A stretch of 34,473 nt of DNA, taken from contig DVKQ01000011.1 in the NCBI GenBank assembly GCA_018715925.1, forward strand, positions 1 through 34,473, given 5' to 3'. Position 1 is the first letter of the stretch; each line of letters opens with the position of its first letter. The notes beneath the pieces are model-generated. The model was not told where the DNA came from. It saw nothing but the letters and a program-made list of their open reading frames with translations, and did no database searches. Of this stretch, positions 2,878 to 30,294 are shown in pieces. The position numbers and the translations under genes are program-made. The DNA is from Candidatus Onthousia faecipullorum (GTDB taxonomy: Bacteria; Bacillota_I; Bacilli_A; RF39; UBA660).

Positions 2878-2900
2878 TTTTATCACTACTTTCTTTAAGT

Positions 2901-7186: not shown

Positions 7187-10058
7187 GATTTTATTATTAG
7201 TAGTATTAATTGGTGTTACGTCATATTTAGGTACTTTTTCTAGTACTTTAAATGTAGATGCTGCTAATAATGAATGTGATGAAAATTATACACTAAAAAC
7301 TTATATAAACAATTTAGGTTATAGTATTTCTGGAAATACGGTATCTTATACAGGAGCGAAAGGATTACTATATTCAACTAGTTTTGATTCTACTATTAAT
7401 GCAGCTGATCCTGATGGTAATTTTTCTTTCGTTGTTCCTGATGAAAATTTAGCTGATAGAATTGAGGTACATTTCTATTTGGCTCAAGATGATGGTGTTT
7501 GTGAGACAAATAAAGAAATTGGTAGTAATACTTTTTATATTGACAGTACAGGACCTAATCAACTTTATAATGATGCTTTATGTGTTAATTATCGTAATAG
7601 GTGGTCAAATAACGAGACTATGCGTAATGCTGTTCCATATTGTTTTACAGAAACTGTATCTATTCAATATTCTTATAATGACGTTAGTAGTTGGATAAGA
7701 GATGCAGAGAGCCTTTATCAAGTTAGTCAAGGTGGTTCAACTATTCAAGCAGATCCAACTTATCAAAATGTTGATGATGTTACCAATGTACCTAAATTAA
7801 CTTGTGATGCTTTTAGTAATAATAATTATCAAAATATTCATAAATATAGTCATAAGGAGTCTAAGACTGTTAATAATTGTACTACAACTTGTGTTGAAGA
7901 AATAGAGGTTAACTTTAGTGATCCTCAAGCGGTTGAGCCTGGTATGTGTTTTCAATATTTGATCGAAATTAAATCTAAGGTTTCTTGTGATAACACATAT
8001 ACTGCTCCAAGACCTAGTAGAAAAGGTGTTTGTTATATGATTCCTTATTGTAGATCAAGTAATGGTTTTGAAAGTACTAAAGGTGGTCCTAATGAAGATT
8101 TTGATGCATGTGTATTAGAATGTGATGGTGGCGAATATAGTCAGTCATGTATAGACTCATGTTATAATAAAGTATATAAACAAGGCAAAACTTATAGTAA
8201 GCAGAATGTTAAAAGACAAAATGCTTTTAGTACTATTAATAATGCTTCTATGTTAACGTTTAGCTCATTCCCATCTAATAGTGGTGCTTTAGCGGCTGTT
8301 CAAGTTGCTAATGGTTGTATTGCAGATAATGTTATTGCAAATCTTGATGCTAATAATCCTAATGATGTTAATAGATTATATAATTTAAAACAACAATATC
8401 CTGGTGGTTCTTATGAAAATGATAGATGGGTTGCTTCTGGTACTTGTCCAAGTAGTATTGGTTATTATTACTTTAGTACAACTGAAAGAACAAGAGCAAC
8501 TATTTTGGAATTACAGGGAAATTACTATGATCAAGATGGACAAAAAAAATATGCTCCTAATAATAATGGATTTTTAATGAGAATTGCTTTTAATGGTGCT
8601 GCTAATACATGTACTGATGTATGTTATTGGACTAATAATTGTGGTTCTAATACTGTTTTAACACCTGCTTTAGTTGAAGATGATTATCAAAAAGAGTTAG
8701 CTGAGTGGGAAAGAAATAAGGTAGCATGTGAACAAGATGTATCTACTTGTAGTAATGAAACTACTAATTATAAGATTGTAGTTGATAATGTTGATAGTAA
8801 TGATGAATACAATTCTGACTCAAAAGATGAGAATAATGATTGGCGTAAGACATATAGTGCTTCTCAGAAATTAAATAGTAATAAAATTACAGGAGCATTT
8901 CCTGATATGGTTACTCTTGCTACTGGTAAATGTGAAGATAAAAATAGTAGTAGTAATGGATGGGATTATCATAATATAATTACATTCCCTGGTATTTGGA
9001 TTAATAATAAGACAGGCCAAACTGTACATTCTATTGAACCTGGATTTGAAGATTATTATACTTATGCTGGAAATGAGTATTGTACTAAACTAAATTCTCT
9101 TCCTGTTAATACTGCATGGTGGTATTGGAAAGTTTCACAAAATGGTGATCCTAATGCTCTTACTAGTAGTCAAAAACAAGCGATAAATAATTCACTTGAG
9201 ATGAATATTAGGGGTCATATAGATAATTATGGTTATTTTGGTTGGAATTTTGATGTTGAATGTTTCTATGCTGTAGATTCTCCAAAAAATTCTAGTTGTC
9301 CACCAAGTGATCCTAATTATCCGAACTGTGATTCTGGTGATGTAGATGGTTGTCCACCAACTGATCCTGACTATCCATATTGTGATTGTCCACCAAGTGA
9401 TCCTGACTATCCATATTGTAAATCTGGTGATGATGATGATCCTCTTGTAACTGATTTTACTTTTAGACCTGTTTCTTTGGATACGATGTTTCCTAATGGT
9501 GGTAGTGCATCACAAACTAGTGTAGATGATAAAGATATTCAAGCTTCTAATTTAATAAACGATTTAGAATCTTTAAGAAATAGTGGTACATCATTAGAGC
9601 CTGTTGTTTCTGCTACTAGAGATCCTGGGTTCAATTGGAGTTGTGCTGCTACTAATCTTGAAAATCCTGATTATATTATTCAACCTGTTACTGTTATGAA
9701 TAAAATTCAAGAATTAGGTGATAGCGTATATGATGGAGATCGATATCTAGATTATCATATAAGATTAACTCCTGAAACTATGAATAAAGTTAGAGCTTAT
9801 AATAATGAATATGATAGTTATACTGAGCCTAGTGATATGAGTGAACTCTTATCTGCTGGTAATAATAAAACTGCTGGTATTACAGTATATCGTAGTTATT
9901 TACTTCATAAAGTTCTAAATAGTAGTGAGTTACTTAAGAGCGGTTTAATTGGATGTAATAATGAAGATAATGGTAGTTGTACTAATGTTATTGATACTTC
10001 TACAAGTTGTTATAATGAGTATATGGCTCAGAGTGCAGTGTTGAAAGGAGGTAACTAA
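7173..10058 (+). CDS. Large Cys-rich secreted protein, possible pilus tip or adhesin
   Basis: A 961-residue secreted protein with a signal peptide (MKKLKILLLVVLIGVTSYLG, probable cleavage after VDA near residue 30) and no further membrane helix. It is rich in Cys, Asn, Asp, Ser and Tyr. Many cysteines are grouped (CVLECDGG, CIDSCYN, CTTTC, CTDVCYW), suggesting multiple disulfides. Residues about 709-749 hold three copies of CPPSDPxYPxC. I recognise no enzymatic domain. ATG 7173 is chosen over the GTG at 7164 because AAGGTGA overlaps that GTG and is well spaced from the ATG. The gene overlaps the sortase gene and is followed by pilin and Tad genes, so it is probably a large exported subunit or adhesin of the pilus. 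This is inferred from context. Confidence 0.8.
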   Translation: MKKLKILLLVVLIGVTSYLGTFSSTLNVDAANNECDENYTLKTYINNLGYSISGNTVSYTGAKGLLYSTSFDSTINAADPDGNFSFVVPDENLADRIEVHFYLAQDDGVCETNKEIGSNTFYIDSTGPNQLYNDALCVNYRNRWSNNETMRNAVPYCFTETVSIQYSYNDVSSWIRDAESLYQVSQGGSTIQADPTYQNVDDVTNVPKLTCDAFSNNNYQNIHKYSHKESKTVNNCTTTCVEEIEVNFSDPQAVEPGMCFQYLIEIKSKVSCDNTYTAPRPSRKGVCYMIPYCRSSNGFESTKGGPNEDFDACVLECDGGEYSQSCIDSCYNKVYKQGKTYSKQNVKRQNAFSTINNASMLTFSSFPSNSGALAAVQVANGCIADNVIANLDANNPNDVNRLYNLKQQYPGGSYENDRWVASGTCPSSIGYYYFSTTERTRATILELQGNYYDQDGQKKYAPNNNGFLMRIAFNGAANTCTDVCYWTNNCGSNTVLTPALVEDDYQKELAEWERNKVACEQDVSTCSNETTNYKIVVDNVDSNDEYNSDSKDENNDWRKTYSASQKLNSNKITGAFPDMVTLATGKCEDKNSSSNGWDYHNIITFPGIWINNKTGQTVHSIEPGFEDYYTYAGNEYCTKLNSLPVNTAWWYWKVSQNGDPNALTSSQKQAINNSLEMNIRGHIDNYGYFGWNFDVECFYAVDSPKNSSCPPSDPNYPNCDSGDVDGCPPTDPDYPYCDCPPSDPDYPYCKSGDDDDPLVTDFTFRPVSLDTMFPNGGSASQTSVDDKDIQASNLINDLESLRNSGTSLEPVVSATRDPGFNWSCAATNLENPDYIIQPVTVMNKIQELGDSVYDGDRYLDYHIRLTPETMNKVRAYNNEYDSYTEPSDMSELLSAGNNKTAGITVYRSYLLHKVLNSSELLKSGLIGCNNEDNGSCTNVIDTSTSCYNEYMAQSAVLKGGN
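9297..9419 (+). repeat. Three 33-base in-frame repeats encoding CPPSDPxYPxC
   Basis: The units start at 9297, 9351 and 9387. Each encodes Cys-Pro-Pro-Ser/Thr-Asp-Pro-Asn/Asp-Tyr-Pro-x-Cys. The second and third differ by one base, pointing to recent duplication. The Pro/Cys/Asp unit resembles a stiff, possibly disulfide-closed linker. Confidence 0.9.
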
Positions 10059-10061
10059 TAT

Positions 10062-10523
10062 ATGAATAGAGCGATGTTAGTTGTAGGTATTATCCTTTTA
10101 GCTATTATAACTTTTGGAGTTGTAAATATTATGCAAAATTATCAAACTGGTAATGAACTTGATTACTATTTGTTAAGAGAGACGACTGAAGCGGCAATGA
10201 CTGATGCAGTAGATGTTGGTTATTTCCGCTTAAGCGGTCAAGTTAGGATGGATAAAGAAAAATTTGTTGAAAGTTTTGTTAGACGTTTTTCTCAAAATGT
10301 TTCAAATAGTAGAACTTATGATATTGGTTTTTATGATATTAATGAGACACCACCTAAAGTTAGTATTTTAGTTAAATCTGAAACTGCTGCTAGTGTTAAT
10401 GATGCTTCTTTAGGAATTACTAATAAAATAGATGCAATTTTAGAAACTAATTATTATTCTAATGAGTATGTTACTAAGATGACTAGAGCAGGTGAGTTAG
10501 ATTATAGTGATGTTGATAGATAA
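10062..10523 (+). CDS. Pilin-like or TadE-like single-helix membrane protein
   Basis: A 153-residue protein with an N-terminal helix (about 5-24: LVVGIILLAIITFGVV) directly after a short polar start, then a soluble outer domain with VDVGYFRLSGQVRMDKEKF and DIGFYDINETPPKVSI. This is the shape of TadE/TadF-type minor pseudopilins, and it lies directly before cpaB-tadA-tadB-tadC. No clear prepilin peptidase motif is seen. The ribosome binding site AAAGGAGGTAA overlaps the end of the preceding gene, so the two are coupled. The assignment rests on architecture and position. Confidence 0.6.
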   Translation: MNRAMLVVGIILLAIITFGVVNIMQNYQTGNELDYYLLRETTEAAMTDAVDVGYFRLSGQVRMDKEKFVESFVRRFSQNVSNSRTYDIGFYDINETPPKVSILVKSETAASVNDASLGITNKIDAILETNYYSNEYVTKMTRAGELDYSDVDR

Positions 10524-10542: not shown

Positions 10543-11367
10543 ATGAATAATTTAGTTGTTGGTATAAAGAAATTCTTTACTAATAAAAATACTGTTACAG
10601 TTGTTGGTGTTATTCTTGCTATTATAATTATTTATGTAGGTTATAATATGCGTATTAATCAAGCGATTACACCTGTTACTGTTCCATATGCTATGGAAGA
10701 TATAAATCCTAGAACACAGATTACAGAAGACATGGTTGGTACTATGGAAATTCCTCAGTCAATGGTAAATGATAATATTATTTCTAATTCTGCGGATGTT
10801 ATAGATATGTATTCTAATTACAATAGTTTTATACCTGAAGGTAGTTTGTTCTATTCTAAGAGTGTTGTATCAAGAGATCAATTACCTGGAAATATAATAT
10901 TAGATTATCCTAAAGGATATGTTTTATATAACTTAGATGTTGATATGGCTAGTACTTATAGTAACCAAATTGTTCCTGGTAATTATATTGATATTTACTT
11001 AAAAGTTCAGAATGCTGAAGGTGCTCAAGGTACTGCGATTGCAGAAGATAGAATTATGGTTGGTAAGTTACTTTCTAATATTAAAGTACTTGCTGTATTT
11101 GATAGTAGTGGTAATGATGTTTTTGCTAATGTAGAAGAAAAAACAGCTCCTGCCCAGATTATATTTGCTGTTCCAGAAGAATATCATATTTTACTTCGTA
11201 AAGCAGGTTTCTTACGTGCTTATGAATCTGAAATTATTCCTGTTCCAACTAATGAAAGTTTAGAAGATGAGCCAGGTGACGTTGAGTTATCTAGTGAGGA
11301 TTTGAAAAACTTTATTAATAATGTTACAGCGATGACTGAAGAAGATTTATCTTATACACAACAGTAA
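10543..11367 (+). CDS. cpaB: CpaB/RcpC-like Flp pilus assembly protein (SAF domain)
   Basis: The 274-residue protein has one helix (about 19-36), then a SAF-type segment (AMEDINPRTQITEDMVGTME), which in CpaB/RcpC proteins is the periplasmic or extracellular part of the Tad pilus machinery. The family segment VGKLLSNIKVLAVFD, then APAQIIFAVPEEYHILLRKAG, is also present. The acidic tail after residue 240 is variable. In Gram-positive cells, where there is no outer-membrane secretin, CpaB is thought to help the pilus pass the cell wall. The gene stands directly before the TadA ATPase gene, the normal Tad order. The ribosome binding site is AAGGAGGAAG before ATG 10543. Confidence 0.88.
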   Translation: MNNLVVGIKKFFTNKNTVTVVGVILAIIIIYVGYNMRINQAITPVTVPYAMEDINPRTQITEDMVGTMEIPQSMVNDNIISNSADVIDMYSNYNSFIPEGSLFYSKSVVSRDQLPGNIILDYPKGYVLYNLDVDMASTYSNQIVPGNYIDIYLKVQNAEGAQGTAIAEDRIMVGKLLSNIKVLAVFDSSGNDVFANVEEKTAPAQIIFAVPEEYHILLRKAGFLRAYESEIIPVPTNESLEDEPGDVELSSEDLKNFINNVTAMTEEDLSYTQQ

Positions 11368-11382
11368 AAAAGGGGTGATGAT

Positions 11383-12705
11383 ATGAACGATACCATATTT
11401 GATAAGTTAGATTTTGGGCTATTTGAACCACTTATTAAAGATGATGATATTACAGATATTTCTTATTGTAATCATGGACAAATTTGGGTTCGTTCCTTAA
11501 CTCAAGGTTCTAAAAGAGTAGAAATTGAAGGGCTAAATGATGCTTTTGTTGAAAAGTTAGCCTTTCAATGTTCTAATGTTATGGGAACTACTTTTAATAA
11601 TGCAAAACCATTTCTTGATGCTGAATCTACAGAGTTACGTCTTAACTTTGTACATGATTCTATTGCTACTAATGGTATTGCAGTAGTTATTCGTAAAACC
11701 CCTGCTAAGATTAGACTTAATAGAGATAAATTACTTAATGAAGATTATTTTACTGCTAATATTCATGATATTTTAATGAAATGTGTTGAAGGTCATTGTA
11801 ATATTATTGTAAGTGGAGAGACTGGTTCTGGTAAAACAGAATTTGTTAAGTATTTAGCAAGCCATACTAAAGAAAATGAGAAAATTATTACTATAGAAGA
11901 TACATTGGAACTTCATTTGGATAAGATATTTCCTCATAGAGACATAGTTGCTATGAAAACTAATAATGTGGCAAGTTATACCGATGTGTTGGTTACTTGT
12001 ATGCGTCAGAATCCTAAATGGATATTATTATCAGAAGTTCGTAGTGCAGAAGCGGTTACGGCAGTTCGTAACTCAATAAGTTCTGGACATAATATTTTAT
12101 CTACAATACATGCTGATAAAGCTAGTGCTATACCTTATCGTATGTATTCGCTTCTTGAGAGTGATATTGATGTTGATCAGTTTTTATCAACAATTTATAG
12201 ATATATTCAATTAGGAGTTCACATTAAAGCATATTATAGTAAAGAATATGGTAAGTTTCATCGTGAAGTCGATGAGGTTGTAGAATTTTATGTAGATGAT
12301 AATAATAAGCCACAGTCTCATATTTTATATCAAAAGACTTTTGGTAAGGCACCTGTACAAAATATGCCAACAGAGCATTTAAAAGAATATTTGGAAAATC
12401 AAAATATCTTTATTGATAATTTATTTACTAAAGGGGATTCAATGAATGTTATTAATAATGAAACTAATAATACTTTAGAAACAACTACTGTAAACGTAGT
12501 GGAATCTCCTAACTTTGAGAGTACTATTAGTAATAATATAAATAATGTTCAAACAAATATAAATAATTTAGCAAGCCAGTCTACTGTGGTTACACCTTAT
12601 CAAAATACGATGTTTAATCAGAGTAGTCAGGTTGTTTCAACTAATCAATTAGGCGTAAATGGTGTTCAAACATCTGTACCTAAAGATAACTTTCCTACTG
12701 AGTAA
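11383..12705 (+). CDS. tadA: TadA/CpaF-type secretion ATPase (VirB11/GspE superfamily)
   Basis: A cytoplasmic hexameric ATPase that powers pilus extension and, in TadA, also retraction. Motifs: Walker A GETGSGKTE (145-153), Asp box TIEDTLEL, Walker B WILLSEVR (213-220) and His box SGHNILSTIHADK (about 232-244). The catalytic part ends near residue 335. An unusual Asn/Thr/Ser-rich tail of about 90 residues follows (NNETNNTLETTTVN), which typical TadA proteins lack. The gene lies between cpaB and tadB. Because VirB11 ATPases are relatives, it might also serve the T4SS encoded downstream, but the flanking TadB and TadC favour the Tad role. The ribosome binding site is AGGGGTGATGAT before ATG. 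Confidence 0.95.
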   Translation: MNDTIFDKLDFGLFEPLIKDDDITDISYCNHGQIWVRSLTQGSKRVEIEGLNDAFVEKLAFQCSNVMGTTFNNAKPFLDAESTELRLNFVHDSIATNGIAVVIRKTPAKIRLNRDKLLNEDYFTANIHDILMKCVEGHCNIIVSGETGSGKTEFVKYLASHTKENEKIITIEDTLELHLDKIFPHRDIVAMKTNNVASYTDVLVTCMRQNPKWILLSEVRSAEAVTAVRNSISSGHNILSTIHADKASAIPYRMYSLLESDIDVDQFLSTIYRYIQLGVHIKAYYSKEYGKFHREVDEVVEFYVDDNNKPQSHILYQKTFGKAPVQNMPTEHLKEYLENQNIFIDNLFTKGDSMNVINNETNNTLETTTVNVVESPNFESTISNNINNVQTNINNLASQSTVVTPYQNTMFNQSSQVVSTNQLGVNGVQTSVPKDNFPTE

Positions 12706-12726: not shown

Positions 12727-13620
12727 ATGGTATTGTTTTTATTAATTGCGATTGCATTTGTTGTCCTTTTATATAGAAATTATCGAGGTAGTAATGTTTC
12801 TAAGTACATTACAGATCAAGTGCAAGTGATTTATGATAAGTTTGCTCCATATTCTTATAAAGTAGTAAGAGAAAAAACTAAGCAATTAGGTCAAGAATAT
12901 ACTGCAAGACAATATCTAATTCAAGTTTTGATTTTAGGTGGTTTTGCTGGTATTGTTACTTATATGTATTTTTATAATTTAATTGTATCTATTATTTATG
13001 TTGTTATTGCTATATGTTTTGTTCCTTACTTATCTTTTTTAAGATGCAAAAGAGTATATAGTGAGTTTATTTTTGAGCAGATTCAAGTTTATACTACTAA
13101 TACTATTATGGAGTTTGCAACTACGCAAAGCTTTGTTAAATCATTAGAAGGGGTTAGAGATTCAGGTATTCTTGAAGATCCTGTATTAGCGGATGTTAAT
13201 CATATGATAGATATTGCTTATGATGAAGGATCTATTGATGGAGCCTTAAAGTTCTTCAGTGATAAATACCCATTTTATATTGTAAAAAATATGCATCAGT
13301 TGTTTTTGCAAATAACTAAAGAAGGTGCTAGAGATACGGGAGAGAGTTTAGAAAATATGCAACTGGATATAGATACACTTGTCGAAAGTGTATATCGTGA
13401 TAGAATGGATAGAGCTAATTTCCATAAGAAGTTTTTACAATATGGTGTTATGTTATTTCTTTTAGTTATGTTAATACAATATATGTTAGGTACTGAAAGT
13501 TATATTGAACTTATTAAAGCTTTTTATGTTCAACTTATACTTCACGGTATTATTATATTTAATAGTTATTTCCTTTTAAAAGGAGAAAAATATTATAATG
13601 AGAATGTGGGGGTTGAATAG
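12727..13620 (+). CDS. tadB: TadB-type inner-membrane platform protein (T2SSF family)
   Basis: TadB and TadC together form the membrane platform that couples the TadA ATPase to pilin assembly. This 297-residue protein has an N-terminal helix, a helix pair at about 64-104, and C-terminal helices at about 238-285. The cytoplasmic helical domain between them (FEQIQVYTTNTIMEFATTQS, then ARDTGESLENMQLDIDTLVE) is typical of T2SSF domains. Strong ribosome binding site GAGAGGAGG. Its stop codon lies 2 bases before the start of tadC. Confidence 0.88.
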   Translation: MVLFLLIAIAFVVLLYRNYRGSNVSKYITDQVQVIYDKFAPYSYKVVREKTKQLGQEYTARQYLIQVLILGGFAGIVTYMYFYNLIVSIIYVVIAICFVPYLSFLRCKRVYSEFIFEQIQVYTTNTIMEFATTQSFVKSLEGVRDSGILEDPVLADVNHMIDIAYDEGSIDGALKFFSDKYPFYIVKNMHQLFLQITKEGARDTGESLENMQLDIDTLVESVYRDRMDRANFHKKFLQYGVMLFLLVMLIQYMLGTESYIELIKAFYVQLILHGIIIFNSYFLLKGEKYYNENVGVE

Positions 13621-13622
13621 TT

Positions 13623-14411
13623 ATGGAAATAGTTTTTGTTGCAATTATTATTTTATTTATATTAGTTTATAATAGAACTATAGATAAAAATAAATTTATT
13701 AATGATAATAAAAAATATTTTGAAATATTAAGGGAAGATGATTATGACTTCTTAGTTTATGCTAAGTATGGTGATAGTGCTGAACCTAATTCTTTGTTTG
13801 AGAAGAGAGTTATGTATGCTTTAGGAGCTTTCTTCATCTTTATGTTCTTATTTATAGATGATGTTAGCTTAATTAATATTATTCTTTCATGTTTAGTTGC
13901 ATTTTTTATCTTTAAAATGCCTTATATGCAATTAAAACAATATTATAAAAAACATTTGCATCAAATTGATGTAATGTTGCCATACTATTTAAAGAGTTTA
14001 GAAATATTAATTCAACATTATACTGTACCTGTAGCGATAGGTAAAAGTATTCCTGATGCTCCTGATATTTTTAAACCTGGTCTTAGGGAAATGATTGAAA
14101 AGATTAATTCAGGAGATTCAAGTATTACACCTTATATGGATTTTGCTAATACTTATCCTGTTAGGGACTCTATGAGAATGATGAGACTTTTATATCGTTT
14201 AGGTCTTGGTGGACAAGAGAAAAAACAAGAAAGACTACTAATGTTTTCTCGTACGGTTTCTAATTTGCAGGCGAAAGCAAGAGATACTAAATATAAAGAA
14301 AGACTTGATCATATGGGTAATATGACAATGATTATGCTTGTTGTTACTGGTGTTAGTGTAATGATAGTTATACTTGCATCTTTGATGTCTAGTTTGGGTA
14401 CGGCTTTATAA
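13623..14411 (+). CDS. tadC: TadC-type inner-membrane platform protein (T2SSF family)
   Basis: The 262-residue partner of TadB. It has an N-terminal helix, a helix pair at about 65-98 and a C-terminal helix at about 232-258. The T2SSF-like cytoplasmic part includes HQIDVMLPYYLKSLEILIQH and, later, RLGLGGQEKKQERLLMFSRT. It follows tadB after two bases and starts just after a GGGGG ribosome binding site inside tadB. It is the last gene of this transcription block; a new promoter follows. Confidence 0.86.
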   Translation: MEIVFVAIIILFILVYNRTIDKNKFINDNKKYFEILREDDYDFLVYAKYGDSAEPNSLFEKRVMYALGAFFIFMFLFIDDVSLINIILSCLVAFFIFKMPYMQLKQYYKKHLHQIDVMLPYYLKSLEILIQHYTVPVAIGKSIPDAPDIFKPGLREMIEKINSGDSSITPYMDFANTYPVRDSMRMMRLLYRLGLGGQEKKQERLLMFSRTVSNLQAKARDTKYKERLDHMGNMTMIMLVVTGVSVMIVILASLMSSLGTAL

Positions 14412-14437: not shown

Positions 14438-14465
14438 TTACAAACTAGTGAATGTTTGGTATAAT
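14438..14465 (+). promoter_or_regulatory. Promoter before the small pilin candidate
   Basis: TTACAA (14438-14443), a 16-base spacer, then TATAAT (14460-14465) with upstream TG (TGGTATAAT, extended -10). It is among the strongest promoter matches in the pilus block and stands directly before the 53-codon pilin candidate, which fits high expression of a major subunit. Confidence 0.72.
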
Positions 14466-14499
14466 TATTTCTGTAAGATATGTGAAAGGAGTGAGTTAA

Positions 14500-14661
14500 A
14501 TGAAAGAAGCGACTGGTGAATTAAATATGACTGTAGTAACTATTGTACTTATTGGAGTTATTGCAGCATTCTTTGCTTTCTTTTGGCCTACAATCCAAGA
14601 AAGTATTCAAGATACTTGGAATGATAATACTAGTTCTCAATCAAATGTAGATTTTAATTAA
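14500..14661 (+). CDS. Small Flp-like pilin candidate, 53 residues (absent from ORF track)
   Basis: The ORF begins MKEATGELNMTVV and ends SNVDFN. A short polar leader with Gly6-Glu7 is followed by one hydrophobic helix (about 11-30) and a short polar tail. Flp major pilins of Tad systems have this size and layout. The canonical G-xxxx-E-Y processing site is not matched exactly, since the Glu follows the Gly directly, so processing is uncertain. GAAAGGAGTGAG provides a good ribosome binding site 7-10 bases upstream, and an extended -10 promoter lies 35 bases upstream. It stands between tadC and a TadE-like gene. Its small size explains why the track omits it. A major pilin role is inferred. 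Confidence 0.75.
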   Translation: MKEATGELNMTVVTIVLIGVIAAFFAFFWPTIQESIQDTWNDNTSSQSNVDFN

Positions 14662-14678
14662 TAAGGATGTGATTTATA

Positions 14679-15122
14679 ATGAGAGATGCGATAGGTCAAT
14701 TTTTTGTTTTACAAGTTATATTAGCTTTTGTTATTTTAATTAATGGTTATATGGCTTATTCTGTTAATTATGCTAGAGCATTTCGCGTTAAAAATCAAAT
14801 TGTTGATATTATTGAACAGTATGAAGGACCTTATAATCGAGAAGGAATAGAGAAGATTAATAGTTATATTGATCAGATGACTTATGAAGTTCCCGGACGT
14901 ATTGTTAATGAATTTGAAAGTGATTACGGTGGTGAGGCTAGTTGTCAAAATGGGTGGTGTTATATTCCACATAAAGTTACTATTGCTAGTGGTGATGAGG
15001 ATATGACAGGTTATTATTATTCTGTGGTTACTTTTGTTAATATTGATATTCCTGTAGTTAATAATATAATTGGATTAGGAAATTTTTTGAGAGTCTATGG
15101 TGAGACTAGAACTATCTATTAA
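14679..15122 (+). CDS. TadE-like pseudopilin or minor pilin
   Basis: A 147-residue protein: a short start (MRDAIGQ), then a hydrophobic helix (about 8-28: FFVLQVILAFVILINGYMAY), then RAFRVKNQIVDIIEQYEG and a soluble domain with two Cys (CQNGWC) that could form a disulfide. This is the usual TadE form: one N-terminal helix continued by an amphipathic alpha helix. It follows the small pilin gene by 17 bases, with an AAGGATGTGA ribosome binding site. A role as minor pilin or assembly initiator is inferred from shape and position. Confidence 0.65.
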   Translation: MRDAIGQFFVLQVILAFVILINGYMAYSVNYARAFRVKNQIVDIIEQYEGPYNREGIEKINSYIDQMTYEVPGRIVNEFESDYGGEASCQNGWCYIPHKVTIASGDEDMTGYYYSVVTFVNIDIPVVNNIIGLGNFLRVYGETRTIY

Positions 15123-15139: not shown

Positions 15140-16120
15140 ATGAATGTTATTATTGCTAATGAAGCTAAAACAATGCTTTCCACTTTAGATATTGATGTTA
15201 TTAAAAGCGTTGATGGTGTTCATACTGCTGAAGAGATAGTTGAAATGTTTAAAAACTTCTTTTATGCAAGAATGATTTTAGATGTAACAGCGATTAAAGA
15301 TTATGATAATATTACAAATATTCAAAAAATATCTATAGGTCTTGATGCTGATAAAATTATTCTTTTACTTCCTAATAATGAGATTTCTAATTCAAGTAGT
15401 TATTTATCTAAAATAATATCTATGGGTATTTATAATTTTACTACTACTGTTGATGGAATTAAGTATTTGTTAGATCATCCTAATACATATAAAGACGTTG
15501 CTCATATTCAACAGCTTAATGATTTATCTAGTACTATAAGTGATAAAGTAATTGCAGGTTCTAGTGTTATTGGAATTAAAAATATTACTGATCATGCTGG
15601 TAGTACAACATTAATTTATATGCTAAAAAAAGAATTGCAAGAGACGTATGGTATGAGTGTTGTTGCTATCGAAGTTAATCGACATGATTTCCTTTACTTT
15701 AACGATAATAATATGGTGTCTGTTGGTGATGATAAATTACTTAGTGAAATTGCTAAACATAAGGGAGCTGCTATTATCTTAATAGATTTAAATGATTCTA
15801 GTAATGAAGGTGCTTGTGATGATGTTTTGTATTTGATTGAGCCTTCTAGTATAAAACTTAATAAATTAATGAGAAGAGATAGAAAAATTTTTGAAGAATT
15901 AAAGGGTAAAAAGTTGGTTCTTAATATGAGTTTACTTTCTAATAGTGATATTATGGATTTTGAATATGAAGGTAGAACTAAGGTTTTTTATAACATACCA
16001 CCTTTAAATGATAGAGTTAAAAATCCTGTACTTAGTGATTTTTTATCTAAAGTTGGACTTGTTAATAATACTAAAGGTAAAGAAGGCAGTAGTAAAATTT
16101 TTGGACTATTTAAAAGATAA
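15140..16120 (+). CDS. CpaE/TadZ-like protein with degenerate ParA-type P-loop
   Basis: CpaE/TadZ proteins are MinD/ParA relatives with an atypical N-terminal receiver domain that place the Tad machine in the cell. The N-terminal part shows the receiver-like DKIILLLPNNEISNSSSYLS and SMGIYNFTT. The ATPase-like part starts near residue 140, where the usual KGGxGKTT is replaced by ITDHAGSTTLIYML: the fold position is clear, but both lysines are gone. Later strands (MSVVAIEVNRHDFLYF, GAAIILIDLND) keep the Rossmann pattern. The length of 326 residues is normal. It probably binds nucleotide weakly or not at all. It is the last gene before the VirB2-like block. Confidence 0.8.
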   Translation: MNVIIANEAKTMLSTLDIDVIKSVDGVHTAEEIVEMFKNFFYARMILDVTAIKDYDNITNIQKISIGLDADKIILLLPNNEISNSSSYLSKIISMGIYNFTTTVDGIKYLLDHPNTYKDVAHIQQLNDLSSTISDKVIAGSSVIGIKNITDHAGSTTLIYMLKKELQETYGMSVVAIEVNRHDFLYFNDNNMVSVGDDKLLSEIAKHKGAAIILIDLNDSSNEGACDDVLYLIEPSSIKLNKLMRRDRKIFEELKGKKLVLNMSLLSNSDIMDFEYEGRTKVFYNIPPLNDRVKNPVLSDFLSKVGLVNNTKGKEGSSKIFGLFKR

Positions 16121-16152: not shown

Positions 16153-16175
16153 TATCTTAGTGAAGGAGAATGTAT

Positions 16176-16556
16176 ATGAATATGATGTTATTAATGAATA
16201 TTGTACAAGTTTTAGATACTACAGTAAATCCAGAAGATAATTGTCGTGGTTTTGGTTTTATCGTTAGAATTATTAAAAATGGTCTATTTCCTATTTTACA
16301 AATAGGTATTCCTATCATTTTAATAGTATTAGGTACCTTAGATTTAGGTAAAGCAGTTATTTCTAGTGATGATAAAGCTGTTAAAGAGGCACAATCTAAA
16401 TTAATTAAGAGATGTATTTATGCTATATTAGTATTCTTTATTGTTACTCTTGTTAATTTAGTGTTCTCTATGGTAGGTACTATTGCTGGAGATGATGCAC
16501 CTGGATTACAGTCTTGGAGTGCTTGTTGGTCCAATCCAGATGGTGGTTCAGAATAA
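16176..16556 (+). CDS. VirB2-like two-helix membrane protein, copy 1
   Basis: A 126-residue protein with two membrane helices, about 36-52 (FPILQIGIPIILIVLG) and 76-97 (IYAILVFFIVTLVNLVF), joined by a charged loop (SSDDKAVKEAQSKLIKR). This is the layout of VirB2/TrbC-type T4SS pilin subunits found beside VirB6 in Gram-positive systems. One Cys before helix 1 (DNCRGF) and one after helix 2 (SACW) are shared with copy 2 and could form a disulfide. The track starts at 16170, but AAGGAG (16163-16168) is only one base from that ATG and 7 bases from ATG 16176, so the latter is used. The gene has its own promoter and terminator. No VirB2 name can be proved without a profile search. Confidence 0.7.
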   Translation: MNMMLLMNIVQVLDTTVNPEDNCRGFGFIVRIIKNGLFPILQIGIPIILIVLGTLDLGKAVISSDDKAVKEAQSKLIKRCIYAILVFFIVTLVNLVFSMVGTIAGDDAPGLQSWSACWSNPDGGSE

Positions 16557-16561
16557 TGGGG

Positions 16562-16587
16562 AATAGCAATTTAATTGCTATTTTTTC
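16562..16587 (+). terminator. Terminator hairpin after VirB2-like copy 1
   Basis: AATAGCAATT, T, AATTGCTATT is a perfect 10-bp inverted repeat followed by a T-run. An almost identical hairpin follows copy 2. Confidence 0.82.
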
Positions 16588-16602
16588 TTAAGGAATGATT
16601 TT

Positions 16603-16947
16603 ATGTTTCAGATATTAGATGTAATGGTAAATTTTGAAAGTAATTGTTCTGGACTTGATTCTATTATTAGAGTTATTAAAGAAGGAGTGTTTCCTATTGT
16701 ACAAATAGCGATACCTATTATTTTAATAGTTCTTTGTACTTTAGATTTGGGGAAGGCAGTTATAGGAAGTGATGATAAAGAAAATAAGAAATTACTTAAG
16801 AGAATAGTAAGAAGACTTGTGTATGCTTTGATTTTATTCTTTTTAGTAACAGTTATTAATTTAATATTTACTATGGTTGGTTCTATTACTGAAAATGAGA
16901 CTTTAATTAGATGGAGTAATTGTTGGAATTATCCTATGGAAAATTAG
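16603..16947 (+). CDS. VirB2-like two-helix membrane protein, copy 2
   Basis: A 114-residue paralogue of the preceding gene product. Helix 1 is nearly the same (FPIVQIAIPIILIVLC, TLDLGKAV), the loop is shorter (GSDDKENKKLLKR), and helix 2 is LVYALILFFLVTVINLIF. Both flanking Cys are kept (SNCSG and SNCW). There is no separate promoter: AAGGAATG before ATG 16603 is the ribosome binding site, so it is probably expressed by read-through of the hairpin after copy 1. An equivalent hairpin follows. The pair looks like a tandem duplication of gene plus hairpin. Confidence 0.7.
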   Translation: MFQILDVMVNFESNCSGLDSIIRVIKEGVFPIVQIAIPIILIVLCTLDLGKAVIGSDDKENKKLLKRIVRRLVYALILFFLVTVINLIFTMVGSITENETLIRWSNCWNYPMEN

Positions 16948-18323: not shown

Positions 18324-20396
18324 GTGAACTTTTTTGGTGATCCTAACTTTTTAAATGATGCATTAAGATCTATATTTAGTGGTTTGGATAGTTTAGGGTA
18401 TTTCTTACTTGATGCTGTTTATAATATTTTCTTTACGGTTGCAAATGCAAATATTTTTCAAGGTGTAACAATTAATATATTTTATGAAAGGGTTCAATTG
18501 ATTTTAGGAGTGTTTATGATATTTAAACTATCTATAACACTTCTACAAATAATTATTAATCCTGATATGTATAAAGATAAACAGAAGGGGGCGGGTTCTT
18601 TAGTTACAAGAATTGCAGTTATACTTGTGTTACTTACTTTAATTGTTCCTATTGAAAATGTTCCTAATACTGAAAATTCACTTAATGAACAGATTAGTAG
18701 TAATGGTATTTTATTTGGTTTTTTATATCAAATTCAAAATACCGTTATAAAAGATAATGTATTAGGTAAGCTTGTTTTAGGTTCTAATGTTGATAGCACA
18801 GAAGGAACTGGTACAGAGCTTGATAATATGGGTGACGTGGGTTCCCAACTTGCCGCTACTGTTGCTAAGGCTTTTATTAAACCTACTTTAAGTAGTAGTG
18901 CAGATGAAGATAATATAACGGCAATGAAAGGTAATGATGGTAATAGTTATCAAGAGAATATTGCATGTAATGGTGGAGAAGCTGATCCTTATTTTAATAG
19001 TAGTCTTACAGCAGGTACTCTTATTAATCATATTAATGATACTTGTGACTCTGATGATGATGGAGAAGTATATGTATTTAATTATGCTATTATAGGTGGC
19101 TTAATATGTTCTCTTATTATGGTATTTATTATTTTAGGATTTACTATAGATGTAGCGGTAAGAGCTGTAAAACTTGCTATTTTAAGACTTATTGCACCTA
19201 TTCCTATTATTTCTTATATTGATCCTAGCCAAGGGAAAGATGGTGCTTTTAATAATTGGGTTAAGACTTTGACTTCTACTTATCTTAGTTTGTTTGTAAG
19301 ATTGATAATTATATACTTTGGAGCTTATTTAATTATTTTATTAACTAATAATAGTGATGATTTTTCAATCTTACAAACTAGTACAAGTGTATTTACATCA
19401 TTTTTTGCAACAATATTCATTATTATTGGTATTTTAATGTTTATGAAAGATGCACCTAAGTTTTTCCAAGATATGTTAGGAATTAAAGGTGATGGTAAAT
19501 TATTTAGTGGTATTGGTACAATACTTGGGGCTGCTGCTTTAACTGGTGGTTTAGTTGGTTCTGTTGCAACTGGTGTAAGAGCTGGATGGGCTGAAGGGCA
19601 GGAATTTAGAGATAAATCTGAAAAAGGTACGCCTGCTAGATATTTAAGAAATGCTTGGACTGGAATTGGAGCAGGAGTCGCAGGTTTAACTAGTGGAGTA
19701 GGAGGACTTGTAACTGGTGGTAGAGCACTTGCTACTGCTGATAAAAAAGTTCCAAGTTCTGTTATGTCTGCAATGCAAAAGCGAAATGCTATGAGAGCAT
19801 CGCACTCTACTGCTTTAGGTAGACTTTCTAGTGAAGCTTATGGTATGTTTACTGGTAGAACTTTAGCAGAGAAAGATAAACAAGCTTTAGAAGTTAATCA
19901 AGCCGCTGTTAAACAGATGCAGGAATGGAAGAGCTTTACTGAAGGTGAAGCTAAGAAGAAAGGCGATTTTGGTTATTCTAAGTATGGTATATACTCAGCT
20001 ACTGATGGAAGAACGCAAATTAGAGCTTTCAATTATGAACGTTTGGTAGCTGCAATGAATGCAAAAGATAGTAGTGGAAACTTTAAGTATGGTGGTTTAC
20101 AGTATAATGTTAGAGATTTTGATGCAAATGTAATGGGAGAAATCTTAAAAAGTCAGAATAGTCGTTATGTTAAGGCAGTTTTTGATGGTACTGAAGATAA
20201 TCCTGGTGTTTTATCAAATTGGGAATTAGCAAAAAAAGCTTTAGCTGATGCTGATATTGACTATAAAGGTGAATATCTTGATCCTATGGTTATAGGTCCA
20301 ACTATAGGTGTTGCAAGTTCTAAAGCACAAGAGATGCAAACTGGTATGAAACATATTAAACATATTGCTAACCATAATGCTAATAAGAGTAAATAG
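18324..20396 (+). CDS. virB6: VirB6/TrbL-like polytopic T4SS channel protein
   Basis: A 690-residue inner-membrane protein. Helices lie at about 56-78, 92-110, 250-275, 283-298, 317-340 and 350-371, with a 130-residue outer loop (about 112-245). A Gly/Ala-rich segment (GTILGAAALTGGLVGSVATG) follows, then a charged soluble C-terminal part of about 280 residues. VirB6/TrbL proteins form the inner-membrane channel of T4SSs, and the Gram-positive versions are long like this one. The gene is followed by PrgI/VirB3, VirB4 and peptidase genes, the usual order in Firmicute T4SSs. It starts at GTG 18324, with AAAGAAGTGATG upstream. The symbol follows architecture and synteny. Confidence 0.85.
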   Translation: MNFFGDPNFLNDALRSIFSGLDSLGYFLLDAVYNIFFTVANANIFQGVTINIFYERVQLILGVFMIFKLSITLLQIIINPDMYKDKQKGAGSLVTRIAVILVLLTLIVPIENVPNTENSLNEQISSNGILFGFLYQIQNTVIKDNVLGKLVLGSNVDSTEGTGTELDNMGDVGSQLAATVAKAFIKPTLSSSADEDNITAMKGNDGNSYQENIACNGGEADPYFNSSLTAGTLINHINDTCDSDDDGEVYVFNYAIIGGLICSLIMVFIILGFTIDVAVRAVKLAILRLIAPIPIISYIDPSQGKDGAFNNWVKTLTSTYLSLFVRLIIIYFGAYLIILLTNNSDDFSILQTSTSVFTSFFATIFIIIGILMFMKDAPKFFQDMLGIKGDGKLFSGIGTILGAAALTGGLVGSVATGVRAGWAEGQEFRDKSEKGTPARYLRNAWTGIGAGVAGLTSGVGGLVTGGRALATADKKVPSSVMSAMQKRNAMRASHSTALGRLSSEAYGMFTGRTLAEKDKQALEVNQAAVKQMQEWKSFTEGEAKKKGDFGYSKYGIYSATDGRTQIRAFNYERLVAAMNAKDSSGNFKYGGLQYNVRDFDANVMGEILKSQNSRYVKAVFDGTEDNPGVLSNWELAKKALADADIDYKGEYLDPMVIGPTIGVASSKAQEMQTGMKHIKHIANHNANKSK

Positions 20397-20411: not shown

Positions 20412-20738
20412 ATGAATGATAGTTATTTAATACCTGCTAATACAAAAAGGGGAACTTTGATACTTGGATGGTTTAAGCCATTTGATTTGATATTACTGGG
20501 AACTGGAGTTTTAATTTCTCTTGTTCTCTTGATGACTTTTCCTATGGCTTCTACTTGGCAAGTTGTTTTGGTTTTATTACCTGGATTAACTTGTGCATTT
20601 CTTGTTATTCCAATACCTAATTATCATAATATTTTAACTATAATTATAGAGTGTTATAATTTCTTTACAGGTAGAAGGAATTATATATGGAAAGGTTGGT
20701 GTGTTAAAGATGTCCAAGATGTCAAAAACAGTAGGTAG
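20412..20738 (+). CDS. PrgI/VirB3-like small membrane protein of the T4SS
   Basis: A 108-residue protein with two adjacent helices (about 27-45 and 50-67) and the PrgI-family style: a polar start (YLIPANTKRG), then FKPFDLILLG, and after the helices PIPNYHNILTIIIECYNFFTGRRNYIWKG. PrgI/TcpE/VirB3 proteins sit beside VirB4 and link it to the membrane. It has a GGGAG ribosome binding site 10 bases before ATG. The next gene starts inside its last 38 bases. Confidence 0.85.
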   Translation: MNDSYLIPANTKRGTLILGWFKPFDLILLGTGVLISLVLLMTFPMASTWQVVLVLLPGLTCAFLVIPIPNYHNILTIIIECYNFFTGRRNYIWKGWCVKDVQDVKNSR

Positions 20739-21267
20739 TCAGTATACTGAAGATTGGCTTCCTATTATAGGAATACAAAATGGTTATATAATCTGTGAAG
20801 GAAAACAGAAAGTTACTGGAGTTAAAATTACTCCTCGTAATATCTTTATTCTTGATCAACAATCTCAAGAGAATGTCTTGATTAGTCTTAAAAATTTTTA
20901 TAATATGATAGACTTTACCTTTTGGTTAGTTGTTGCTGATAGACCTGTAGATATATCTGTTTATATGTCACAACTACAACTTCTATATAACGATACAACA
21001 TCTCCTGCTATTCGTAAGTTAATCTTACAAGATATAGATAAAGGTAATACTTTTATGAATAATAATATTGTTGATACTGAGTACTTCATTCTATTTAAAG
21101 ATGCTAGTGAAGATGTATTACAGAAAAGGGTTCGTTTATTGATTAATGGACTTGCATCTTGTGGACTTAATGCTTCACAAGTTAGTAATGATGATCTTAG
21201 AATAATTATGGAAAACTTCTTAAATGGAGGAGTTAATACAGAGTTTGGGACGGTGATGCCTGTATGA
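20701..21267 (+). CDS. Separate VirB4/TraC N-terminal-like domain protein
   Basis: This 188-residue soluble protein opens SQYTEDWLPIIGIQNGYIIC, like the N-terminal domain of Gram-positive VirB4 proteins (TrsE/TraC type), which usually begin with a similar tract and then carry the ATPase in the same chain. Here the chain stops, and the ATPase follows as its own gene in an ATGA overlap. GTG 20701 has AAAGG five bases upstream; ATG 20710 and ATG 20719 are alternative starts (MSK), and the choice is open. Tight coupling to both neighbours suggests a fixed ratio with VirB4. It is probably the N-terminal half of a split VirB4. The function is inferred from similarity to that domain. Confidence 0.7.
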   Translation: MLKMSKMSKTVGSQYTEDWLPIIGIQNGYIICEGKQKVTGVKITPRNIFILDQQSQENVLISLKNFYNMIDFTFWLVVADRPVDISVYMSQLQLLYNDTTSPAIRKLILQDIDKGNTFMNNNIVDTEYFILFKDASEDVLQKRVRLLINGLASCGLNASQVSNDDLRIIMENFLNGGVNTEFGTVMPV

Positions 21268-23054
21268 GTATAAGTTTAAAGAGTCAGTTAGCTCCTAAAG
21301 GATTACAATTTAATCCTAGTGACTTTAATATTAGCGATAAGTATGCAACTATATTATCAGTTATATCTTATCCTCGTTATATCGCACCTGGTTACCTTTC
21401 AACATTGACTTCTATGAGTGGTATTAAAATAGTTATTAAACATATTCCTGTACCATTTAGTACTATGTCTAAAATGATTAATAGACAAGTTGCAGATTTA
21501 AGAGAAAGATATCGTCAAGAAAAAGATCAGACTACTAAGGAGAGAATTAGACAGGATGCTGAGAGCCTTGAATCCTTTGTCTCTATGCTTGCATCAAGTC
21601 AGTCTCGTATTTTTGATTTTCAAATGCATATTATGATAAATGCTGATACTAAAGAAGACTTGGAGTTACGTAAAGTAAATGTTAAGAACTATTTGGATGC
21701 AATGGAACTTAGAGCGGTTTCTTTACGTTTTGAACAGGAGAAAGTTTTAAAAAGTATCTTGCCAATATTTCCTAATCAAGATATAGAAGAGAGAATTGGT
21801 ACTCCTATTCCAACTCCTACTATTGCAGCGATGTATCCTTTTATCTTTGATAGTATTAAAGATCCAGGATTATCTGTTTTACTTGGAGTTGATTTTTCTG
21901 GAGGGGTAATCTTATTTAATCAATTTCTTTATCAAATAAGAAAAGAGAATAATAGAAATAATGCTAATATGATTATACTTGGTACTTCAGGTTCTGGTAA
22001 AAGTACGGCTGCTAAATTGTTACTTAGATCTCATATTAGAAATGGTTGTCAGATAGTTGCAATTGACCCTGAAAATGAGTTAGAAGAGATGACTAGAACT
22101 TTTGGTGGAGATACTATTGATATTGGTAAAGGTGGAGAGTTTGGACTCATTAATCCATTAGAAGTCATTATAGATGCTGATGATGAGGAGATTAGAGATG
22201 GACTTGGTTATACTGTTTTAACTCGTACTTTACAGTCACTTAGAGCCTTTATGAAGTATTATGATCCATCTATAGAAGAAGATGTACTTAATATGTTTAG
22301 TGAGATTGTTCAAGATACATATAAACGTTTTGGAATAGATTTTAATACAGATTTTAGTAATTTTACATCTGCTGATTATCCAACTTTTTCTGATGTATAT
22401 GCTACTATTAAGGGAAGACTTTTATCATTAACAGAACAGACTAGAGAAAAAGATATTATTCAAAGACTTGAACTTAAGATTAGACCTTTAATAAAAGAAT
22501 TAAAATTCTATTTTGATGGTAAGACTACGTTAACTGCTAATAGTGATTTTATGGTATTTAATATAAAAGAATTTATGAATTCTGATACTAATATTAGAAA
22601 TGCTTTATTTTTTAATATCTTAAAATATGCTTGGGGACTTTGTCTTGATCCAACAGTTAATACAATATTAATGGTAGATGAAGCTCATGTATTACTTAGC
22701 AATAACAATGAACAAGGAGCTGATTTCCTTGCTCAAGTACAACGACGTGCTCGTAAATATAATACAGGTACAATAATTATTACCCAGCAGCCTAGTGACT
22801 TCTCTAGTCCTTCAATTATTACACAGGGGAAAGCAATATTTGATAACTCATCATATTATCTTGTTATGGGACTTAGAAAACAGGCTGTTGAAGATTTATC
22901 ATTATTAATAGATTTAAATGAAAATGAGAAAGATAGTATTAAGAGATATTCTCAAGGTGAAGCACTGTTTGTATGTGGTAATAGACGTATGAGAATAAAT
23001 ATAGTTGTTACGCAAGAAGAATTAGAATCATTTGGTAGTGCTGGAGGATTTTAG
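21264..23054 (+). CDS. virB4: VirB4/TraC-type T4SS ATPase
   Basis: The central ATPase of T4SSs, energising assembly and transport at the inner face of the membrane. An N-terminal region (1-220) has a coiled-coil stretch (about 75-105, RERYRQEKDQTTKERIRQ). The RecA-like domain shows Walker A GTSGSGKST (240-248), Walker B MVDEAH (470-475), and the C-terminal VirB4 signatures ARKYNTGTIIITQQPSDF and GEALF. The length of 596 residues is short for the family because the first domain is encoded by the preceding gene. ATG overlaps the previous stop (ATGA). Confidence 0.95.
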   Translation: MSISLKSQLAPKGLQFNPSDFNISDKYATILSVISYPRYIAPGYLSTLTSMSGIKIVIKHIPVPFSTMSKMINRQVADLRERYRQEKDQTTKERIRQDAESLESFVSMLASSQSRIFDFQMHIMINADTKEDLELRKVNVKNYLDAMELRAVSLRFEQEKVLKSILPIFPNQDIEERIGTPIPTPTIAAMYPFIFDSIKDPGLSVLLGVDFSGGVILFNQFLYQIRKENNRNNANMIILGTSGSGKSTAAKLLLRSHIRNGCQIVAIDPENELEEMTRTFGGDTIDIGKGGEFGLINPLEVIIDADDEEIRDGLGYTVLTRTLQSLRAFMKYYDPSIEEDVLNMFSEIVQDTYKRFGIDFNTDFSNFTSADYPTFSDVYATIKGRLLSLTEQTREKDIIQRLELKIRPLIKELKFYFDGKTTLTANSDFMVFNIKEFMNSDTNIRNALFFNILKYAWGLCLDPTVNTILMVDEAHVLLSNNNEQGADFLAQVQRRARKYNTGTIIITQQPSDFSSPSIITQGKAIFDNSSYYLVMGLRKQAVEDLSLLIDLNENEKDSIKRYSQGEALFVCGNRRMRINIVVTQEELESFGSAGGF

Positions 23055-28086: not shown

Positions 28087-30294
28087 ATGAAGTTAAAATT
28101 TAGAGCGGATAAAGACGATGTAATGATTTTTATAGTCTTTGCTATATTTTTACTTTATATAGTAGCGATTGGTATTGTTAATTTACATTCTTTTGCTACA
28201 GAAGGATATTTTAGTGGGTTAAATCCATTTCCAGCTTTTACACCTGAATTTTTATGGATTACTTTAATTGTTTATTTTGTGGCATTAATAGGTATGCTTA
28301 TTAGTGTTAAATCATACTTTTTTGAAATGGAAAAGGGGATTGGTTTTACTAGTGAGAAAAAAGATAAAGGTTATTCTAGATGGGCTAAAGATAAAGAGAT
28401 GAAAGAAGAACTAGTTATGGTTCCTTTACAAGATGAAGTTAGTAATGCAGCAGGGGTACCTATTATGCTTAATGATAAAGAAGCTTGGGTTGATAATGGA
28501 GAATATCATACTTTAGTTATTGGTTCTACTGGTTCAGGTAAGACGCAAACAGTTATTAAACCGACAGTTAAATTACTTGCTAAAGCTGGGGAGTCTATGA
28601 TAATTACAGATCCTAAGGGTGAGATTTATGAATCTACTGCTAATATGCTAAGAGATAAAGGATATGATGTACAGATACTTAACTTCCGTGATCCACAAAA
28701 TGGTAGTAGCTGGAATCCTTTATCACTTCCTTATAGGATGTATAAAAATGGTAATCAAGATAAAGCGATAGAGTTACTTGATGACCTTGCTTTAAATATT
28801 TTGTATGATGAATCTAGTAATAATAGTGATCCTTTTTGGGAAAAGACATCAGCTGATTACTTTTCTGGTGTTGCTTTAGGACTTTTTGAAGATGCTAAAG
28901 AAGATGAGATAAATATTAATAGTATTAGTTTAATGACTACTGTTGGTGAAGAGAAGTTTGGTGGTAGTACTTATATTAAAGAATATTTTTCATTTAAAGA
29001 TCCTGCTAGTGCAGCATCAATTAATGCATCTAGTACTATCAATGCTCCGACAGATACTAAGGGATCAATTTTATCAGTATTTAGACAGAAAATTAAATTA
29101 TTTGCATCTCGTGAGAATTTATCAGAAATGCTTAGTCATAGTGATATAGAACTTGCTGATATAGGTAGAAAGAAAACAGCTTTATTTATAGTTGTGCAAG
29201 ATGAAAAGAAGACTTATCATTCTCTTGTTACAATACTATTAAAACAATGTTATGAAACATTAATAGATGTGGCACAGGAAAATGGAGGAGAGCTTCCTGT
29301 TAGAACTAATTTCTTACTTGATGAGTTTGCAAATATGCCACCTTTAAAAGATGTTACAACTATGATAACAGCAGCACGTTCAAGACATATAAGATTTACG
29401 ATGATTATTCAAAACTATGCACAGTTAAATCAAATATATGGTAAAGAAAATGCGGAAACAATTCGTGGTAACTGTGGTAATATAATTTATTTGTTATCAA
29501 CAGAACTTGCTTCTCTTGAAGAGATTTCTAAGATGTGTGGAGAAGTTAAATCTAAAGATGATGATAAAACTGCTAGTACTCCTTTAGTTACTATTTCTGA
29601 TTTACAGAGGATGAAACCATTTGATGTTATTATCTTAAGAATTAGAAAACAACCATTTAAAACGAAATTTACTCCTGATTTTAAACTTGAGTGGGGTAAA
29701 ACTTATCCTAAAGCTAGTTATCCATCACGTGAGAAAATTCCTGTTCATACATTTGATATAAAAACTTTTGTTAAGGAAAAGAAGAAAGAGAAACTTTTAG
29801 AAATGATGAATAGTAATAATGCTAATCCTAATGGGGGAAGTACACCTCCTGGGTTTGTACCACCAAATCTTTTTGGTATAGGTGCTGGTTCTAACAATGG
29901 TCCTATGGAAAGTATGATGCCTAATACTAGTGGTATGCTTAGACCAAGTAATCCTATGCCTTCTTTTATGAATCCTAATATGGAAAATGAAAGTAGTGTA
30001 CCTAAGAGGCCTTCATTTGATGTGGATGAGTTAGTTAAGAAGATAGATGCTAAGATTGCAGAACTTGAAAAAGAAGAGGCAATGAATAAACAAAAACAAC
30101 AGCAGAAGATGGAGGCTATGAAATCTAAAGAGGAAAGACCTGTTAAGGATGTTTCTCCAGTTAAAGAAGTTGTTAATAGTCCTATTCCTGAAGTTAGTGA
30201 AATGCCTAAAGTTGAACAACCTAAAAAGTCAGTTAACTTAAGTTTAGATGATGACGATGATGATGACTTCTTTGATGATTTCTTTGATGAATAG
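28087..30294 (+). CDS. virD4: VirD4/TraG-type T4SS coupling ATPase
   Basis: The coupling protein brings DNA or protein substrates to the T4SS. Two membrane helices (about 13-33 and 55-77) precede a cytoplasmic ATPase with Walker A GSTGSGKT (146-153) and Walker B LLDEF (410-414), then AARSRHIRFTMIIQNYAQL. After about residue 570 the chain becomes low-complexity: a Pro/Gly/Asn/Met-rich part, a Lys/Glu/Gln coiled stretch and a very acidic tail (DDDDDDDFFDDFFDE). The family core is about 570-600 residues, so the tail is an addition that may bind substrates or partners. It ends the T4SS block, has its own promoter and is followed by a terminator. No relaxase gene accompanies it. Confidence 0.95.
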   Translation: MKLKFRADKDDVMIFIVFAIFLLYIVAIGIVNLHSFATEGYFSGLNPFPAFTPEFLWITLIVYFVALIGMLISVKSYFFEMEKGIGFTSEKKDKGYSRWAKDKEMKEELVMVPLQDEVSNAAGVPIMLNDKEAWVDNGEYHTLVIGSTGSGKTQTVIKPTVKLLAKAGESMIITDPKGEIYESTANMLRDKGYDVQILNFRDPQNGSSWNPLSLPYRMYKNGNQDKAIELLDDLALNILYDESSNNSDPFWEKTSADYFSGVALGLFEDAKEDEININSISLMTTVGEEKFGGSTYIKEYFSFKDPASAASINASSTINAPTDTKGSILSVFRQKIKLFASRENLSEMLSHSDIELADIGRKKTALFIVVQDEKKTYHSLVTILLKQCYETLIDVAQENGGELPVRTNFLLDEFANMPPLKDVTTMITAARSRHIRFTMIIQNYAQLNQIYGKENAETIRGNCGNIIYLLSTELASLEEISKMCGEVKSKDDDKTASTPLVTISDLQRMKPFDVIILRIRKQPFKTKFTPDFKLEWGKTYPKASYPSREKIPVHTFDIKTFVKEKKKEKLLEMMNSNNANPNGGSTPPGFVPPNLFGIGAGSNNGPMESMMPNTSGMLRPSNPMPSFMNPNMENESSVPKRPSFDVDELVKKIDAKIAELEKEEAMNKQKQQQKMEAMKSKEERPVKDVSPVKEVVNSPIPEVSEMPKVEQPKKSVNLSLDDDDDDDFFDDFFDE

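Follow-up and report, generated by a model that had tools for sequence, protein, structure and literature searches.

A conserved 53-residue protein encoded between tadC and a TadE-like gene in uncultured Bacilli is a candidate Tad pilin without Glu+5

The window analysed here, a stretch of 34,473 nucleotides from Candidatus Onthousia faecipullorum, contains an overlooked 53-codon gene that, as judged from its sequence, is real beyond reasonable doubt. We consider it probable, at roughly 0.62, that its product is the main subunit from which a Tad-like pilus filament is built. The pilus would be a divergent Tad pilus that is coupled to, or encoded together with, a type IV secretion system. On the features tested, the protein is not a canonical Flp, and membership in the Flp family as defined does not hold.

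The ORF extends from an ATG at 14500 to a stop codon at 14659-14661, and the encoded protein begins MKEATGELNMTVVTIVLIGVI. It is preceded by a strong ribosome binding site, AAAGGAG, and is flanked by tadC upstream and a TadE-like gene downstream. The 88 nt that separate it from tadC form the widest gap within the same-strand gene run 10062-30294. The protein has a proposed leader, MKEATG, a hydrophobic helix from about residue 8 to 30 and a short polar tail; the proposed cut is predicted to fall between G6 and E7. The features of the run are as follows.

10062..10523, + strand: DUF5411 protein, marker of the locus family
10543..11367, + strand: CpaB/RcpC-like protein
11383..12705, + strand: TadA/VirB11-type ATPase (VirB11 and TadA models score equally)
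12727..13620, + strand: TadB-like inner-membrane platform protein (by position; no Pfam hit)
13623..14411, + strand: TadC-like inner-membrane platform protein (by position; no Pfam hit above cut-off)
14438..14465, + strand: internal promoter before the pilin gene (TTACAA, 16-nt spacer, extended -10 TGGTATAAT)
14485..14491, + strand: ribosome binding site AAAGGAG, 8 nt before the ATG
14500..14661, + strand: 53-aa pilin-like protein (reading frame, genus alignments, selection, AlphaFold)
14679..15122, + strand: TadE-like minor pilin, leader MRDAIG followed by Q, long helix 2-47 and an alpha/beta domain (weak fold matches to pilins)
15140..16120, + strand: TadZ-position protein (position only; no Pfam hit)
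16170..16947, + strand: two VirB2-like two-helix proteins (the second with a weak match to the Mbov_0395/MMCAP2 conjugation pilin-like families)
18324..20396, + strand: TrbL/VirB6-like protein
20701-21267, + strand: separate conserved 188-aa gene of unknown kind before VirB4, kept adjacent across the family
21264-23054, + strand: VirB4-type ATPase
28087..30294, + strand: VirD4-type coupling protein

This single run unites a Tad-like set (CpaB, TadA/VirB11, TadBC, pilin, TadE) with a type IV secretion set (VirB2-like, VirB6, VirB4, VirD4, and M23 and NlpC/P60 hydrolases). The order recurs in the family as DUF5411, CpaB, TadA, TadB, TadC, pilin, TadE-like, TadZ position, VirB2-like, VirB6, VirB3 position and VirB4, so that the placement of the short gene between tadC and the TadE-like gene, on which the sequence-only reading had drawn, is kept across family loci. 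No Pfam relaxase was found in the window ORFs scanned, and PF03432 finds none in the genome. Just upstream of the locus lie a gene for a 964-aa secreted Cys-rich protein (window 7164-10058), which may be a surface adhesin, and a sortase-B-like gene (window 6404-7186). A thioredoxin-like lipoprotein with a CSHC motif, encoded at window 2470-2886 on the - strand and pointing away from the locus, could serve the disulfides of Cys-rich surface proteins.

Alignment of the same position in related genomes had been set beforehand as the test that could refute the gene, and it found the ORF conserved. The frame is open and alignable in all 20 of the 20 genus relatives whose contig runs past tadC. Residues 2-11 (KEATGELNMT), which include the Gly-Glu start region pointed out earlier, are invariant among these relatives despite synonymous codon change, and pN/pS is 0.16 for codons 2-29 and 0.86 for the variable tail. 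Some relatives use a GTG start and retain the ribosome site. A chance ORF, or a leader peptide without protein function, might be suspected because the frame is short and belongs to no curated family. However, the low pN/pS, the retention of the ribosome site where GTG replaces ATG as the start, and the invariant core of 116 distinct proteins leave this explanation with practically no probability, and conservation and selection already refute a chance ORF at the sequence level.

In a class-wide profile search, 44 of the 54 genomes from its bacterial family contained the pilin (E<1e-5); beyond the family, this search returned only leaderless matches with E of at least 6e-4, and nothing credible. 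A scan of 84,980 species genomes identified 357 encoded relatives, from uncultured Bacilli/Tenericutes such as Candidatus Onthousia and Scybalousia. Eighty of these 357 loci were kept and read. All of them carry the pilin gene, and in those with two recognisable flanks it is always placed between tadC and tadE. K2, G6, E7, L8 and N9 are invariant in the 116 distinct proteins. The scan pattern itself demanded G6, E7, N9 and an acidic residue or Ala at position 3, so that the independent evidence at these positions comes from the class-wide profile search and the alignments. Two family genomes seemingly lack the gene, but the contig of one (G169) stops at tadC and the other (G040) is masked downstream, and neither is therefore counted as a loss. 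A location on phages, plasmids or mobile contigs was considered and rejected: no encoded relative was found in viral contigs, and the neighbours TadC and VirB6 were without a match in plasmids.

The dedicated promoter that the sequence-only reading had placed before the gene is present and conserved. It consists of TTACAA at 14438-14443, a 16-nt spacer and TGGTATAAT at 14457-14465, a TATAAT -10 element with a preceding TGG. In 34 of 78 loci, a perfect TGNTATAAT occurs no more than 110 nt before the pilin gene, compared with 2.6% in shuffled sequences, although formal p-values overstate the case because the loci are related. The same scan upstream of CpaB, TadA, TadB, TadC and TadE found a perfect TGNTATAAT in none of the 58-79 loci available for each. 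Many of the other loci have TTGATA or a similar -35 element together with TATAAT at the usual spacing, and the promoter is also conserved within the genus.

The single hydrophobic helix that had been predicted is reproduced by AlphaFold, which models residues 3-47 as one helix with a pLDDT of 86. A fold search with this model gave no match, as expected for one helix. Positions 8-28 are free of charged residues in 95 of 95 variants. In the same variants, Cys is confined to positions after residue 30, which fits an extracellular tail, and there are 4-6 Cys in loci with two copies. The pilin has no match above cut-off in Pfam and none in NCBIfam, and a PDB sequence search returned nothing credible. 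PF07790, the archaeal pilin N-terminus, matches 15 of 36 members, all below the curated cut-off (best E 0.0022). With respect to VirB2 and conjugative pilins, the protein has one helix rather than two, and no VirB2-type profile matches it.

The earlier designation as Flp-like holds in part. The 53-aa length, the single hydrophobic helix, the location in a tad locus and the invariant G6 that ends the leader are all of the Flp type. The Flp motif, an acidic residue (Glu/Asp) at +5 followed by Tyr+6, counted from the cleavage Gly, is absent: position +5 is Thr or Ser and position +6 is Val, Leu or Ile in 95 of 95 variants. The prepilin motif [GAS]-X4(uncharged)-[DE], published for Gram-positive bacteria (PMC3244431), is found in the first 12 residues of none of the 95 variants, Pfam Flp_Fap (PF04964) matches none of 36 members, and an hhalign comparison of the pilin profile with 18 canonical Flp sequences gave 17%, out of register. 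A search for a canonical Flp elsewhere in this genome found none. A canonical Flp (G followed by QALVEY) is present in 17 of 57 family genomes. Two examples, at L204:9986-10180 and in L205 (reverse strand, rc 7496-7681), have GQALVEY and a Cys-containing tail. In these two neighbourhoods, which were read, there are no tad genes within several kb, and both genomes also carry the hybrid locus.

A TadV-type peptidase, expected of an Flp system, is absent from the locus. The search for a prepilin peptidase elsewhere, suggested earlier, did find one A24 peptidase, the only one in the genome, but it is encoded far away and is of the PilD type, not a dedicated TadV. It is located on another contig beside a PilC-type gene, and this contig also carries a canonical GFTLIE pseudopilin. 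An A24 peptidase is present in 66 of 71 family genomes, nearly always exactly one, and adjoins a PilC-type gene in 28 of 30 loci examined; there is no A24 match in two pilin-positive draft genomes, G106 and G341. The simplest reading is that the PilD-type peptidase also cuts the pilin. Work on the Kil system has discussed that prepilin peptidases can be promiscuous and that a Tad pilin can be processed by the enzyme of another system (PMC12075869).

The leader M[KR][ED][AS]xG is common to the pilin and the TadE-like proteins. A profile alignment of the two places residue 1 on residue 1, at a low probability of 27%. For the TadE-like model, Foldseek gave no match at E<=0.001, and VIA listed type IV pilins (8pfb, 4ixj, 3sok) at Z 3.4-4.0 among unrelated chains at similar Z. 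The copy numbers of the two genes are linked: loci with two pilins have two TadE-like genes in 18 of 18 cases, and loci with one pilin have one in 56 of 62 (Fisher 4e-13 if the loci were independent). The second copy is Cys-rich in the 18 loci (L086-L132; e.g. L086:10296-10526, L107:10001-10267), and its C-terminus is Lys-Gly in each of the 18, mostly as CxWKG or CxYKG. In a minority of loci, tadC and the pilin gene are 1-4 kb apart. The insert in L104 (L104:6156-9580) encodes YfhO and a family-2 glycosyltransferase, the one in L107 (L107:7113-9650) encodes YfhO, and others (e.g. L116:8573-9886, L133:8542-9897) contain membrane-protein genes without a clear Pfam match. That such genes immediately precede the pilin gene hints that the pilin or a surface structure may be glycosylated.

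The role as main filament subunit is favoured by selection, family-wide presence, fixed gene order and the five invariant residues, by the uncharged segment, the tail-only Cys, the single AlphaFold helix and the common leader, by the co-duplication with TadE-like genes, the promoter conservation and the lack of a canonical Flp in the genome, and by the sub-threshold PF07790 matches and the YfhO/glycosyltransferase inserts. It is weakened by the missing Glu+5/Tyr+6, the missing prepilin motif, the lack of Pfam, NCBIfam and PDB matches, the out-of-register Flp profile, the absence of TadV from the locus, the two genomes without A24, and the VirB2-like pair, which could form a filament instead. 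In an unlikely alternative, the protein is a small membrane subunit that assists TadB/TadC or the secretion system as an adapter or assembly factor, and the filament consists of the VirB2-like (16170-16947) or TadE-like proteins. The missing Glu+5 and prepilin motif speak for this reading, two VirB2-like genes are present in the same run, and TadE-like proteins have been proposed as subunits of Gram-positive tad loci in which no Flp is recognisable (PMC3244431). However, a conserved strong promoter of its own, tandem duplication with diverging Cys-rich tails, and a leader common with the TadE-like proteins are pilin-like traits that are not expected of a one-copy adapter.

It is also conceivable, if distinctly improbable, that the protein is a minor pilin and that a canonical Flp encoded elsewhere is the main subunit. 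The 17 family genomes with a canonical Flp speak for such an arrangement, but this genome and most family members have none, and the 53-aa gene is nearly always present.

If the protein is the main filament subunit, its path may be outlined as follows. Major-pilin status and high expression, both part of the sequence-only reading, we infer; read-through together with the internal promoter would raise pilin expression above that of the machinery genes. The pilin would insert with its N-terminus inside and its tail outside, as suggested by the Cys pairs, which relatives carry in the tail alone. The single PilD-type peptidase would cut after Gly6, and the CpaB-TadABC machine would stack the helix of roughly 47 residues to form a thin filament. 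The TadE-like protein, which has the same leader, would act as its tip or primer. The filament would serve the neighbouring type IV secretion system, probably in contact with other cells. Glu+5, which is usual in pilins, is absent from the whole of this system; more speculatively, the invariant Glu at +1 may take over its pairing role.

Pilins are found by the Glu+5 motif, and the existence of a conserved family without it implies that tad loci called pilin-less may have one. The family, which hundreds of genomes from uncultured gut bacteria contain, makes it possible to test whether Tad filaments really require Glu+5, and the gene would supply the missing part of a predicted, unexplained machine of gut bacteria, the DUF5411 locus. 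A wider proposal is made tentatively and is rather unlikely as a whole: that the locus encodes a Tad-type machine without Glu+5 in either leader-bearing pilin (main and TadE-like), forming one chromosomal unit with a VirB4/VirD4 system, with a common TadA/VirB11 ATPase and with the pilin filament as a contact or transfer organ in Bacilli. According to a 2025 review, Gram-positive type IV secretion systems are without VirB11 (PMC12857230).

Among the closest known systems, Flp pilins (PF04964; e.g. Flp1, Caulobacter PilA, Myxococcus KilP) are likewise small (50-80 aa), have a single hydrophobic helix at the N-terminus behind a short leader with Gly as its last residue, and are encoded in tad loci beside the TadABC and TadE-type genes. 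In contrast to them, the pilin described here is without Glu+5 and Tyr+6, has a charged Glu at +1, and has neither a Pfam match nor a TadV. Archaeal type IV pilins (PF07790), in which Glu+5 is also often absent, show a weak N-terminal resemblance, with all matches below the curated cut-off. Gram-positive Flp-like or Flp-less tad loci likewise have a subunit that is not a canonical Flp, and their Flp-like proteins are without Tyr+6 (PMC3244431); here the acidic +5 is missing too, and the motif of that survey therefore cannot find the pilin. An operon of gut bacteria with DUF5411, a CpaF-type ATPase and a PilC-type protein, predicted from gene context to be secretion-related, shares these three components, but it was assigned to Roseburia, Ruminococcus and Eubacterium, and neither a pilin at this position nor type IV secretion genes were named (PMC9523054). 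Finally, PAPI-1 and IncI conjugation also combines type IV pilus genes with a VirB4/VirD4 secretion system (PMC12857230). Those systems are Gram-negative and use a type IV pilus, not a Tad pilus, whereas here, in a genome where no PF03432 relaxase was found, the two sets form one chromosomal gene run in Bacilli.
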